From Candidatus Saccharimonadota bacterium (GTDB lineage: Bacteria; Patescibacteriota; Saccharimonadia; Saccharimonadales; UBA10212), in NCBI GenBank assembly GCA_016187175.1, contig JACPKG010000005.1, positions 1-43,101 of the forward strand: 43,101 nucleotides of DNA, in the 5' to 3' direction. The notes under the pieces were generated by a model. It made no database searches and had not been told where the DNA came from. It saw only the letters and a program-made list of their open reading frames with translations. Below are positions 1 through 32,311 of the stretch, one piece after another. The position numbers were made by a program, and so were the translations under genes. Positions within the stretch are counted from its first letter, which is position 1. The number at the start of each line of letters is the position of its first letter.

Positions 1-1
1 A

Positions 2-301
2 CAGGACGAAAAGAGTCAGATAAGTAACAAAATAAAGGCTATGAACGTGCTGCGCTCGCGGCTACTTCAAGCCAAGATTGAAGAAGAACAAACTAAACTA
101 GGTGATGCCCGTCGGGCACTGATTGGTTCTGGCGACCGTAGTGAAAAAATCCGTACTTACAACTTCCCTCAAGATAGAATTACCGACCACCGCATTTGTT
201 ATTCCCGCAGCAACCTATCAGGCGCTCTGAATGGCGAGATTGACGACCTAATCGAAAAACTCCAAGCTGCCGAAAGGCAGTTAATAAGCCATGAACAATA
301 A
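2..301 (+). CDS. prfA: Peptide chain release factor 1 (RF1), C-terminal part, cut by window start
   Basis: RF1 recognises UAA and UAG on the ribosome and triggers release of the peptide. The frame is open from base 2; only about the last 99 residues are present. The visible part is the RF family C-terminus: QDEKSQ followed by a helix ending MNVLRSRLLQAK, then the conserved stretch GSGDRSEKIRTYNFPQ and RITDHR, which lie just after the GGQ catalytic loop; the GGQ itself is before the window. An internal ATG at 41 is not a start. prmC, whose product methylates the GGQ glutamine, follows 47 bases downstream in the same direction, the usual prfA-prmC pairing. Certain as to family. Confidence 0.96.
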   Translation, partial: QDEKSQISNKIKAMNVLRSRLLQAKIEEEQTKLGDARRALIGSGDRSEKIRTYNFPQDRITDHRICYSRSNLSGALNGEIDDLIEKLQAAERQLISHEQ

Positions 302-303
302 AC

Positions 304-341
304 CTACTACTTTTTTGAACGATCGTTCAAAAAAGTAGTAG
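304..341. repeat. 38-bp perfect palindrome between prfA and prmC
   Basis: Bases 304-341 equal their own reverse complement exactly, centred on GATC (321-324), with arms CTACTAC, then six T, then GAAC. As RNA it would fold into a 17-bp hairpin with a 4-base loop. It begins two bases after the prfA stop and ends 7 bases before the prmC start, so it could act as an RNA processing or attenuation site, but it lacks a following U tract and GC-rich stem. Two more perfect palindromes lie in and after prmC. Confidence 0.8.
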
Positions 342-348
342 TATTAGC

Positions 349-1215
349 ATGACTGTCGGTAAATTCGTTAGAGAATATACCAGAACCCTAAAAGAGGCTG
401 GGGTTGGGTCAGCAAGACTGGATTGTTTAGTGTTGCTGGAAGACGAACTGGGGTGTGACCGGGCTTGGATTTTGGCCCACCCGGAAGCAGAAATAAAAAC
501 CGAGCAGCTTAAAGAATTGAACAAAAAGTTAGCTCGGCGTGCTAGCCATGAGCCATTAGCTTATATCCGCGGTTTTTCTGAGTTCTATGGCCGCCGGTTT
601 AAGGTCAATAAACGGGTTTTAGAACCCCGCCCCGAATCCGAAACCATGGTTAATTTACTTTGTAAATTAGTCGTTAGTCACCAGTCGCTAGTTTCTAGTC
701 ATTTAAAAATTATAGATATTGGTACAGGCTCTGGTGTTCTAGCCATAACAGCTAAATTGGAAATTCCAGGCGCACAAATTACAGCTACCGACATAGACCC
801 CAAATGCTTGAAGGTTGCCCGCCAAAACGCCCGAGCTTTAGGAGCTAAAGTTGAGTTTATAGAAGGTGATCTCCTCCAACCTTTCCTATCCACTAACTAC
901 CATCTACCGACTACCATCTTAGCCAACCTGCCCTACGTGCCCAACCACTGGAAAATTAATGAGGCCGCGGCTATGGAACCACGGATCGCTATATTCGGTG
1001 GTAAAGATGGCCTGAACATGTATAGGAGACTATTCGAGCAATTGAAAGATTTTAAGGGTACGACCCTTAGGCCTAAGGGTCGTACCCTTAACGGAGTTGG
1101 ATTTGTGCTTACGGAGTCTTTACCGCCGCAGCACGAAAAACTGGCTAAAATTGCCGAGCATTCCGGCTACAAATTACAAAAGGTGCAAGACTTTATCCAG
1201 CTGTTCAAAAACTAA
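349..1215 (+). CDS. prmC: Release factor glutamine N5-methyltransferase (PrmC/HemK)
   Basis: Methylates the GGQ glutamine of RF1/RF2 with S-adenosylmethionine in the cytoplasm. 288 residues, normal length. The N-terminal helical domain is residues 1-90; the SAM motif IIDIGTGSG is at 121-129, the acidic ribose-binding residue follows in ATDID (146-150). The substrate motif is NLPY at 193-196 where PrmC normally has NPPY. Position after prfA supports the call over other methylases. Odd: the gene carries two tracts of degenerate 7-base repeats (668-702, 886-922), encoding linker residues about 107-118 and 180-191, and a 38-bp perfect palindrome (1053-1090, residues about 235-247); all keep the frame. 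The start is ATG 349; no clear Shine-Dalgarno is seen. Confidence 0.94.
   Translation: MTVGKFVREYTRTLKEAGVGSARLDCLVLLEDELGCDRAWILAHPEAEIKTEQLKELNKKLARRASHEPLAYIRGFSEFYGRRFKVNKRVLEPRPESETMVNLLCKLVVSHQSLVSSHLKIIDIGTGSGVLAITAKLEIPGAQITATDIDPKCLKVARQNARALGAKVEFIEGDLLQPFLSTNYHLPTTILANLPYVPNHWKINEAAAMEPRIAIFGGKDGLNMYRRLFEQLKDFKGTTLRPKGRTLNGVGFVLTESLPPQHEKLAKIAEHSGYKLQKVQDFIQLFKN
668..702. repeat. Degenerate heptamer tract inside prmC
   Basis: Five adjacent 7-base units reading TCGTTAG, TCACCAG, TCGCTAG, TTTCTAG, TCATTTA follow a TTAG; consensus TCNNTAG. The tract encodes the linker between the N-terminal and SAM-binding domains of PrmC. The same word class occurs between rplU and ileS (7846-7873). 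Confidence 0.75.
886..922. repeat. Second degenerate heptamer tract inside prmC
   Basis: Five units TATCCAC, TAACTAC, CATCTAC, CGACTAC, CATCTTA; consensus NATCTAC. It encodes residues STNYHLPTT just before the NLPY motif, where PrmC proteins have a short variable loop. Confidence 0.7.
1053..1090. repeat. 38-bp perfect palindrome within prmC coding sequence
   Basis: Bases 1053-1090 are exactly self-complementary around AGGCCT (1069-1074), with arms TAAGGGTACGACCCTT. It is translated in frame as part of KGTTLRPKGRTLN, a segment that looks inserted between the helix ending in EQLKDF and the strand GFVLTE. This resembles the concept of palindromic elements inserted into genes (for example Rickettsia palindromic elements), but I do not recognise the sequence. 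Confidence 0.85.
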
Positions 1216-1230
1216 TAAGACCCTTCTAAT

Positions 1231-1258
1231 ATTCTAATATTCTTAAGAATATTAGAAT
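1231..1258. terminator. 28-bp perfect AT-rich palindrome between convergent prmC and htrA
   Basis: ATTCTAATATTC (1231-1242) is mirrored exactly around TTAA to 1258. prmC ends at 1215 and htrA ends on the other strand at 1299, so this is the likely bidirectional stop. The left arm is itself a doubled TTCTAATA octamer. No GC-rich stem, so terminator function is an inference from position. Confidence 0.5.
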
Positions 1259-1273
1259 GGATGTTCTTGCCTC

Positions 1274-1308
1274 TTAGCTTTTACCATTTGATTATTACTT
1301 ATTGCTCG
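1274..1308. repeat. Degenerate heptamer tract at the htrA 3' end
   Basis: Five units TTAGCTT, TTACCAT, TTGATTA, TTACTTA, TTGCTCG; consensus TTANYTA. The htrA stop codon (1299-1301, minus strand) lies inside the tract. Confidence 0.65.
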
Positions 1309-2498
1309 CTCGGAGCGGCTTCGAGTGTGGCGCGAACGGTGATAGTTTTATCGTCACGGACAATGGTTAGGGTAACGTTCTCGCCAACCTGGAAGCGTGA
1401 TAGGGCGGCGGTGAGGCTGGTTTTTTCGTCAATTGTGATGTTATTAACCTTGGTGATGATGTCTTTTTCTTTCAAACCGGCTTTCTCGGCCGGGCTGCCG
1501 GCTACAACCGAAGAACTATCGCGGGATGGAACAATATAAGCGCCTCTTTTAACATCCAGGTTGTACTGATACGCCAAATCATCAGTCAAAGAAACATAGC
1601 GCACACCCAGGTAGGCTTGTTGTAGCTTGCCGCTACGAAGAACACCATCAATCAGACCTTTGACATCGTTAATTGGAATAGCAAAACCAATATTTTCCGC
1701 ACCCCCAGCGATAGCTGTATTTATAGCTATAACCTCACCACTAATATTAACCAACGGTCCGCCAGAGTTACCTTGATTAATGGCTGCGTCAGTCTGGAAT
1801 AAATCTGTTAGCGTTTCGGCGCCAGCGCCAGATTGGTCTGCGGCCACCACACTGCGGCCATGTCCAGAAATGATTCCTTCAGTAACCGTATTTTGGAACT
1901 GGCCAAGAGCATTACCGATTGCAATAACCCGATCGCCGACTTCCATTTTAGAAGAGTCTCCAATTGTCACGGGAGTCAAGCTCTTGCCCTTTAAATCGCT
2001 GATTTTAAGAAAGGCCACGTCCAGTGGATTGTTCTCGCTTGTGCGACCCAGTACCTGGACGTTGGCGTATTGAGTACCATCAGCCATGGTTATGCTGACC
2101 TTTGTGGCACCAGCTGGTACGACGTGACGGTTGGTAACAATTACGCCCTCAGCACTGATAATGAAGCCGGTGCCAGCACTAGCTTGCCGCTGAGGCACAA
2201 CGAAGCCAAAAAAATCTGTGGCGCTGGTTTCGCTTTCCACTTCTACGGACACAACACTTTGGCCGACTTTTTTGGCTATCTCGGAAATTAGTTCACTCTC
2301 ACTACTAATTACCTGCTGTTTCTGCTCTATGGTCTTGGCTGTTTGGCCGCCGTTGCCGCTAATCTGAGCACCTAACAAACCACCACCAAAACCTATAAGT
2401 CCACAAAGAACCACAAAAGAGAATCTTTTAATACGATTTTGAAGGTTGGTGAAGCTAAGACCAGGTAACTTTGGTTTGTTAAACTGAACTATCGACAT
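1299..2498 (-). CDS. htrA: Membrane-anchored serine protease of the HtrA/DegP family
   Basis: Envelope quality-control protease. 399 residues from ATG 2498, chosen over the GTG at 2504 because AGGGAG lies at 2505-2510 at proper spacing for the ATG and would overlap a GTG start. One N-terminal transmembrane segment (VVLCGLIGFGGGLLGA, about residues 29-44) anchors the protein with the catalytic part outside. The triad is visible: His in TNRHVV (residue 125), Asp in NPLDVAFLKI (160), Ser in GNSGGPL (245). A single C-terminal PDZ domain occupies about residues 290-395 (YLGVRYV, then AGLKEKDIITKVN). It is convergent with prmC. Family call is secure; whether it is DegS- or DegP-like cannot be said. 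Confidence 0.96.
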   Translation of the reverse strand: MSIVQFNKPKLPGLSFTNLQNRIKRFSFVVLCGLIGFGGGLLGAQISGNGGQTAKTIEQKQQVISSESELISEIAKKVGQSVVSVEVESETSATDFFGFVVPQRQASAGTGFIISAEGVIVTNRHVVPAGATKVSITMADGTQYANVQVLGRTSENNPLDVAFLKISDLKGKSLTPVTIGDSSKMEVGDRVIAIGNALGQFQNTVTEGIISGHGRSVVAADQSGAGAETLTDLFQTDAAINQGNSGGPLVNISGEVIAINTAIAGGAENIGFAIPINDVKGLIDGVLRSGKLQQAYLGVRYVSLTDDLAYQYNLDVKRGAYIVPSRDSSSVVAGSPAEKAGLKEKDIITKVNNITIDEKTSLTAALSRFQVGENVTLTIVRDDKTITVRATLEAAPSEQ

Positions 2499-2627
2499 AT
2501 CCACTCCCTTTTAAACCATAAACCTTAAAGTAAGCTTAAAACCCCAATGCCAGTCTAACATGCACCCGGCCCGGCCCCAGGGCCCTCACAAAAAATGAAC
2601 GCTAGTGGTTTTTGTGGGATATGGGGG

Positions 2628-32092: not shown

Positions 32093-32150
32093 GCACCCGT
32101 GGCTGTTCTTGGCCTCGTTGATAATTTCAATATGTAAAATATACAATTTA

Positions 32151-32184
32151 TTACAAAAAGTGCGCGAACGCGCACTTTTTGTAA
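32151..32184. terminator. Strong 16-bp hairpin in the 31890-32418 gene-free region
   Basis: TTACAAAAAGTGCGCG and its exact complement CGCGCACTTTTTGTAA around a two-base AA. GC core with T run on both strands fits a bidirectional terminator. The rest of the 529-base gene-free region holds the KGG promoter and attenuator, a pair of 14-base direct repeats (32312, 32334) and the GIY-YIG promoter; I see no tRNA or other known RNA in it. Confidence 0.65.
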
Positions 32185-32311
32185 TAATGCAGGTGAATCT
32201 TGTGAACATACATTAAACTAGACTGATGTTCGATGCAGACTCTGCTTTCTAACCATCAATGCTTGTACTATGCCATCGCTAATGACATCGAGATTATAGA
32301 TCTATACAACG

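Follow-up and report, generated by a model that had tools for sequence, protein, structure and literature searches.

Three long, perfect palindromes lie before, inside and after prmC in a Candidatus Saccharimonadota bacterium, and the locus raises the question of whether they have one origin and how such a sequence could come to stand in frame within a gene. The stretch of DNA that we analysed (hereafter, the window) has 43,101 nucleotides and is the entire contig C2 of the genome G000 (GCA_016187175.1; 663,662 bases in 22 contigs, 93% complete). With a probability of about 80%, we consider the palindrome in prmC to be a non-autonomous mobile palindrome of the Y1 (RAYT/TIRYT) hairpin type, placed in frame in a tolerant loop, and the outer two palindromes to belong to separate classes.

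Three exact palindromes of three families

The features of the locus are as follows.

2..301, + strand: prfA (peptide chain release factor 1), truncated at the start of the contig so that only its 3' part is present; matches the NCBIfam prfA model at E 1e-32
304..341, no strand: loop-free perfect palindrome of 38 bp, CGATCG-centred class, 2 nt past the prfA stop and 7 nt ahead of the prmC start
349..1215, + strand: prmC (release factor glutamine methyltransferase; 288 aa), carrying the hairpin insert in frame; scores 200.4 bits with TIGR03534, for which the cut-off is 199.1
1052..1091, no strand: perfect palindrome of 40 bp that comprises two hairpins, of the Y1-transposase-associated type, in inverted order; about PrmC residues 235-248 (KGTTLRPKGRTL)
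1052..1070, + strand: first hairpin, TTAAGGGTACGACCCTTAG, with GG-N5-CC centre
1073..1091, - strand: second hairpin, inverted, CTAAGGGTCGTACCCTTAA
1231..1258, no strand: perfect 28-bp palindrome of the TTCTTAAGAA-centred family, between convergent genes
1299..2504, - strand: convergent open reading frame for a trypsin-like serine protease whose C-terminal part resembles a PDZ domain; HtrA-like, named by eye from the sequence

All three palindromes are exact. The first has arms of 19 and no loop, and the second has arms of 20 and is in frame with prmC. The original prediction had sized the outer two correctly at 38 and 28 bp; the middle one, given there as 38 bp, spans 40, with one more base at either end. 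Loop-free palindromes with arms of at least 14 are expected 1.6e-4 times per 43 kb. The genome-wide count that had been proposed as a check yielded 38 palindromes (arm at least 12, loop at most 3), compared with none in five first-order Markov simulated genomes. Together, these numbers rule out a chance origin. An assembly artefact is also unlikely, because a separately binned relative, G006, carries palindromes at all three positions with differing bases. As predicted, the three sequences are unrelated, and they represent three distinct families. A single shared family is excluded by sequence, centre and distribution, so that the palindromes are not the one phenomenon they had been taken for.

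Elsewhere in the window, a fourth long palindrome lies at 32148-32187 (40 bp, 2-nt loop, TTATTACAAAAAGTGCGCGAACGCGCACTTTTTGTAATAA) and reads as A-run, stem and T-run on both strands. Other recurrent, imperfect hairpin families also occur in G000, for example GAGGTCCGACCTTG (19 copies) and TCTAACGGGATGA (13-15 copies).

The middle palindrome is a hairpin doublet inserted in PrmC

The palindrome at 1052-1091 is an inverted doublet of the hairpin AAGGGTCGTACCCTT. It adds about 12-13 residues to PrmC in frame, close to the 12 first proposed, and the segment is missing from PrmC in 25 of 29 relatives. G006 has the same doublet with one base changed, while G002 and G013 each have a single hairpin at the same place, in opposite orientations; one further relative has an unrelated insertion at this position. 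In the three relatives that do have the segment, the DNA is palindromic or near-palindromic. The original prediction had named the same protein segment on non-palindromic DNA as the result that would speak against it, and had likened the middle palindrome to the palindromic elements of Rickettsia genes. No such segment was found among the 29 relatives, and the Rickettsia analogy is therefore apt for the middle palindrome; it does not extend to the outer two.

In the predicted PrmC fold (mean pLDDT 88.9), the only stretches below 50 lie in the insert, which sits between a helix ending at residue 233 and a strand starting at residue 250. As modelled, the insert thus occupies a disordered, low-confidence loop. 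Two further PrmC loops hold other hairpins in relatives, such as TGCTACAAGGATAATCCTTGTAGCA in G006 and CAATTTCCAAGGAGGCTCCTTGGAAATTG in G011; each of these two also matches sequence flanking Y1 genes of the genome in which it occurs. Separately, two non-palindromic in-frame segments may represent another kind of intragenic repeat: window positions 669-705 (PrmC VVSHQSLVSSH), with TAGTC-like repeats, and about 40 extra residues in LepA (G000:C11:25819-27843).

A block of near identity with another genus

G006 is placed in another genus. Window positions 801-1300 are 89-100% identical to G006, whereas the neighbouring stretches reach only 52-82%. Along window 1-1310 as a whole (G006:C9:8300-9608), the comparison is a mosaic, with 94-100% identity at 1-200, 89-100% at 801-1300 and 52-82% elsewhere; moreover, the window contig and the G006 contig C9 end at the same base. 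From the alignment, the mosaic identity and the shared contig end suggest either a recent exchange or a shared assembly break. Because the block is nearly identical, the middle and third palindromes share a recent history with G006. The prmC hairpin common to both genomes lies within the exchanged block and therefore counts as one event, and the G006 copies of these two palindromes lend them no independent support. The first palindrome is not part of the block.

There is an even chance that homologous exchange with a relative resembling G006 is all that brought the middle and third palindromes into this genome, and the identity block speaks for it. Such an exchange would be compatible with mobility rather than a substitute for it: it accounts for the recent history of the locus but leaves unexplained where the dispersed families came from, and at the same codons both G002 and G013 have a single hairpin.

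The outer palindromes belong to other classes

The first palindrome is one of a CGATCG-centred, loop-free class with 7 members in G000 and 19 in G006, whose arms vary freely yet remain complementary. Perfect palindromes of this class, 26-46 bp long, stand at gene junctions in both genomes. Among 198 genomes, the exact form at 304-341 occurs only in G000. At the prfA-prmC junction of G006, the palindrome CTCCTATTTTTTTCAGCAATCGCTGAAAAAAATAGGAG compares with it as follows: 14 pairs are unchanged, 4 are changed on both sides and 1 is broken. Judged from these two sequences, the compensated changes fit either selection on a hairpin or copying from arm to arm, and a hairpin with pairing maintained in one of these two ways is the most likely identity of 304-341. 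In both genomes the junction palindrome ends 7 nt ahead of the prmC start; that it helps to couple the translation of prmC to prfA would be a guess.

The third palindrome is, by our reading, a copy of another dispersed palindrome family. The TTCTTAAGAA-centred family has ten members in G006, eight of them sharing the core, mostly at sites where the mappable G000 counterpart has no palindrome. At the spot corresponding to 1231-1258, G006 has a perfect 32-bp version, and the left arm in the window has an extra 8 bp (TTCTAATA repeated). Sequence comparison thus marks 1231-1258 as a probable remnant of the 32-bp form. At five G006 copies (C5:43181, C8:7507, C2:43418, C7:52255 and C9:8366), the flanks differ from copy to copy yet are complementary to each other, and they extend the symmetry beyond chance.

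The outer palindromes might instead be bidirectional transcription terminators or other gene-end RNA hairpins that do not move. This is possible, although we lean against it. Both lie at gene junctions, several CGATCG-centred palindromes show an A-run, a stem and a T-run on both strands, and the prfA-prmC junction shows compensated changes. An intrinsic terminator has a G+C-rich stem followed by a T-run; however, 304-341 has its runs the wrong way round, in the order T-run, stem, A-run, while 1231-1258 is rich in A+T and lacks a T-run. G006 copies also occur between divergent genes, as far as crude gene calls can tell, and a search of Rfam returned nothing above threshold, only sub-threshold microRNA models of the kind that plain symmetry would give.

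Hairpins of the prmC type flank Y1 transposase genes

Outside the window, and so beyond what the original prediction took in, G000 has five genes for Y1 HUH tyrosine transposases (PF01797 above cut-off), one of which (C1:25246) appears truncated. All five loci are bracketed, each by its own palindrome. Within the GTDB family, there are 24 Y1 genes in 8 of 16 genomes, most of them bracketed. Across Patescibacteria, 42 of 71 Y1 loci have a matching palindrome on both sides, compared with 6 of 354 mismatched locus pairs used as a control; most of the matched palindromes stand 40-80 bases upstream of the matched start and no more than 50 beyond the stop. Among Y1 loci with a named source, those of Candidatus Saccharibacteria come closest.

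The hairpins at Y1 genes resemble the one in prmC. A GG-N5-CC centre is found in nearly all Y1-flanking hairpins within the GTDB family and also in each half of the prmC palindrome. Palindromes with this centre and arms of at least 8 number 28 in G000 and 57 in G006; there are none in 220 kb of G007, in which no Y1 gene was detected. Both G013 and G006 have Y1 genes flanked by the core of the prmC hairpin, GGGTCGTACCC, and a one-loop variant, CTAAGGGTCCGACCCTTAG, flanks a Y1 gene in a Howlettbacteria genome (L257). A search for a Y1 gene with exact AAGGGTCGTACCCTT at its ends found core matches only, so the cognate link for the prmC hairpin family consists of core and architecture. G002 has hairpins of the prmC type and no detected Y1 gene in its 89%-complete genome.

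The Y1 proteins have about 205-233 aa and carry the motifs NH[VF]H, FQ and YIHLNP. Pfam reported only Y1_Tnp above cut-off and no C-terminal helix-turn-helix, a domain that could be missed if diverged. Among NCBIfam models of REP-associated tyrosine transposases, the sole match was NF047646, at 34-49 bits against a cut-off of 80, and a PDB sequence search with one Y1 protein gave no match at E <= 0.001.

These observations fit the following scheme. The prmC palindrome is one short hairpin present twice in inverted order, and the hairpin is of a kind borne at the ends of RAYT/TIRYT Y1 (HUH) transposase genes. By analogy with E. coli TnpA-REP, the hairpin may be recognised and processed by a Y1 protein as single-stranded DNA. 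It would have landed in frame in an exposed PrmC loop and, with its stop-free frames, been tolerated there. We infer that a Y1 transposase moved the prmC hairpin.

Y1-associated hairpins are dispersed within core genes and may change together

Of 198 genomes in the order, 6 contain AAGGGTCGTACCCTT, with 19 occurrences in all; the reversed control gave 0. For gene positions outside the window, we used a hexamer-based open reading frame caller, which is approximate, and gene names come from NCBIfam. On this basis, 11 of 14 copies of the wider prmC hairpin family in G000 lie within predicted genes, including those for PrmC, RsmA, LepA, RuvC and ValS. Ten of the 14 make up five inverted pairs, and G006 has more pairs. 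Overall, in-frame hairpins of the Y1-associated type were found in PrmC, RsmA, MnmA, LigA, LepA, ValS and RuvC; the loops concerned are missing from most relatives. In RsmA and MnmA, the hairpin family that occupies a given loop differs from genus to genus. Translation of the 23-mer TGTGATAGGTCTAACCTATCACA yields VIGLTYH in MnmA, in LigA and in a methyltransferase-like protein but CDRSNLS in RsmA; being translated in different frames across genes, it is conserved as DNA, not as peptide. In rsmA (G000:C1:32961-32983), the hairpin encoding CDRSNLSQ adds no length relative to relatives without a hairpin, as if native sequence had been replaced.

Copies within one genome also appear to change together. 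The loop CTA/TAG of TGATAGGTnnnACCTATCA is present in 9 of 9 copies in G000 and in 0 of 13 in G006, a contrast that covers orthologous sites in ligA, mnmA and the methyltransferase-like gene as well as transposase flanks (exact probability 2e-6, with copies treated as independent, which may not hold). Separate mutation at each site is unlikely. At the orthologous mnmA and ligA sites, the hairpin tracks the transposase flank of its own genome, which suggests homogenisation. We infer from these alignments that the TGATAGGTnnnACCTATCA copies were homogenised, or else repeatedly re-inserted; for copies within one genome generally, homogenisation seems the fitting account. A bolder proposal is that Patescibacteria Y1 transposases maintain protein-coding hairpin families in core genes and overwrite the copies that already stand there. 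Hairpins at orthologous codons would then change in step with the transposase flanks of their own genome, as a selfish element homing to hairpins within essential genes. We regard this as rather unlikely.

Could mutation alone have produced the palindromes? Template switching at imperfect inverted repeats can make or repair symmetry with no transposase, and missing SbcCD-like nucleases would favour the result. No SbcD match was found in the 93%-complete G000, while the same search was positive in 13 of 14 control genomes. The four compensated pairs in 304-341 between G000 and G006 are what arm-to-arm copying gives, and the extra symmetry in the differing flanks of the G006 TTCTTAAGAA copies points the same way. 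Nevertheless, this explanation leaves unaccounted for the identical hairpins at many unrelated places and on both sides of Y1 genes, and a near-identical stretch common to G000 and G006 keeps an uncorrected mismatch in G000 (AACAGAATTCAACGATCGCTGAATTCTGTT). Mutation alone may plausibly explain why the outer palindromes are perfect but not how the middle one arose, and as an account of the locus it is very improbable. The original prediction had stressed that long perfect palindromes are normally unstable because of SbcCD. The apparent lack of SbcD fits their tolerance, but the argument has limited weight, as it concerns one incomplete genome and palindromes of only 28-40 bp, below the length of strong instability and strong SbcCD effects. 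Finally, an ordinary functional PrmC loop with a conserved peptide and incidental DNA symmetry, for which the intact gene and the retention of the segment in G006 could be cited, is rejected as extremely unlikely: 25 of 29 relatives lack the segment, other genes read the same DNA in other frames, the single hairpins that G002 and G013 have there are oppositely oriented, and 20-bp arm symmetry by chance is negligible.

Comparison with known systems

The mobile, Y1-associated hairpin is the preferred reading. Previous work, mainly in other phyla, has already described REPs within genes, REP dimers and Y1 transposases associated with TIRs (PMC3733652, PMC6006769), and the latter paper does not mention the phyla considered here. 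A search of one open-access library found no report joining REP-like elements or tyrosine transposases with Patescibacteria, which is not proof of novelty. What appears to be new here is the transposase link of the hairpins and their in-gene spread in Patescibacteria. Loops of core enzymes are repeated landing sites for different hairpin families and so provide natural with/without pairs for studying the tolerance of proteins to insertions. Hairpin mobility also becomes testable with small proteins and oligonucleotides.

With IS200/IS605 elements, the genes share the HUH/Y1 catalytic core (PF01797). Their tyrosine motif is YIHLNP (class 2) rather than Y---Q, and they are single divergent genes, not near-identical copies.

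The likeness to TIRtrons is closer. TIRYTs are TIR-associated tyrosine transposases (PMC3733652) and largely form TnpA-Y1 subclass 2.1 (PMC6006769). Gene size and the motifs of our Y1 genes are as in that subclass, as are the bracketing inverted repeats, possibly self-complementary and found elsewhere as single or paired copies. By contrast, each gene here has flanks of its own, in the form of a short palindrome that is complete and centred on GG-N5-CC; no GGGGWSAS motif was seen in these flanks, and Pfam reports no helix-turn-helix tail. Many copies here are in frame within core genes, and the hosts are Patescibacteria.

The REP/REPIN/BIME/RAYT systems share short hairpins, inverted doublets, a separate hairpin family for each transposase, REPtron-like bracketing and some intragenic copies. 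Closely spaced inverted pairs in several copies, which characterise REPINs and BIMEs, are present as the five pairs among the 14 G000 copies. Unlike GTAG REPs, the hairpins here are fully paired with no general unpaired GTAG or GTGG foot, a paired CTAC...GTAG occurring only in some. Copy numbers here are low, about 2-20 per family, and the prmC family is largely intragenic.

The Rickettsia palindromic elements likewise consist of palindromic DNA, inserted without a frame shift into housekeeping genes that are unrelated to one another and retained in the protein product. The prmC-type element is shorter than RPE-1, and here, in contrast to those elements, a resident transposase family with matching flanks has been identified. 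The locus connects Rickettsia-style in-frame palindromic insertions to a resident transposase family, in the reduced genomes of the Candidate Phyla Radiation.
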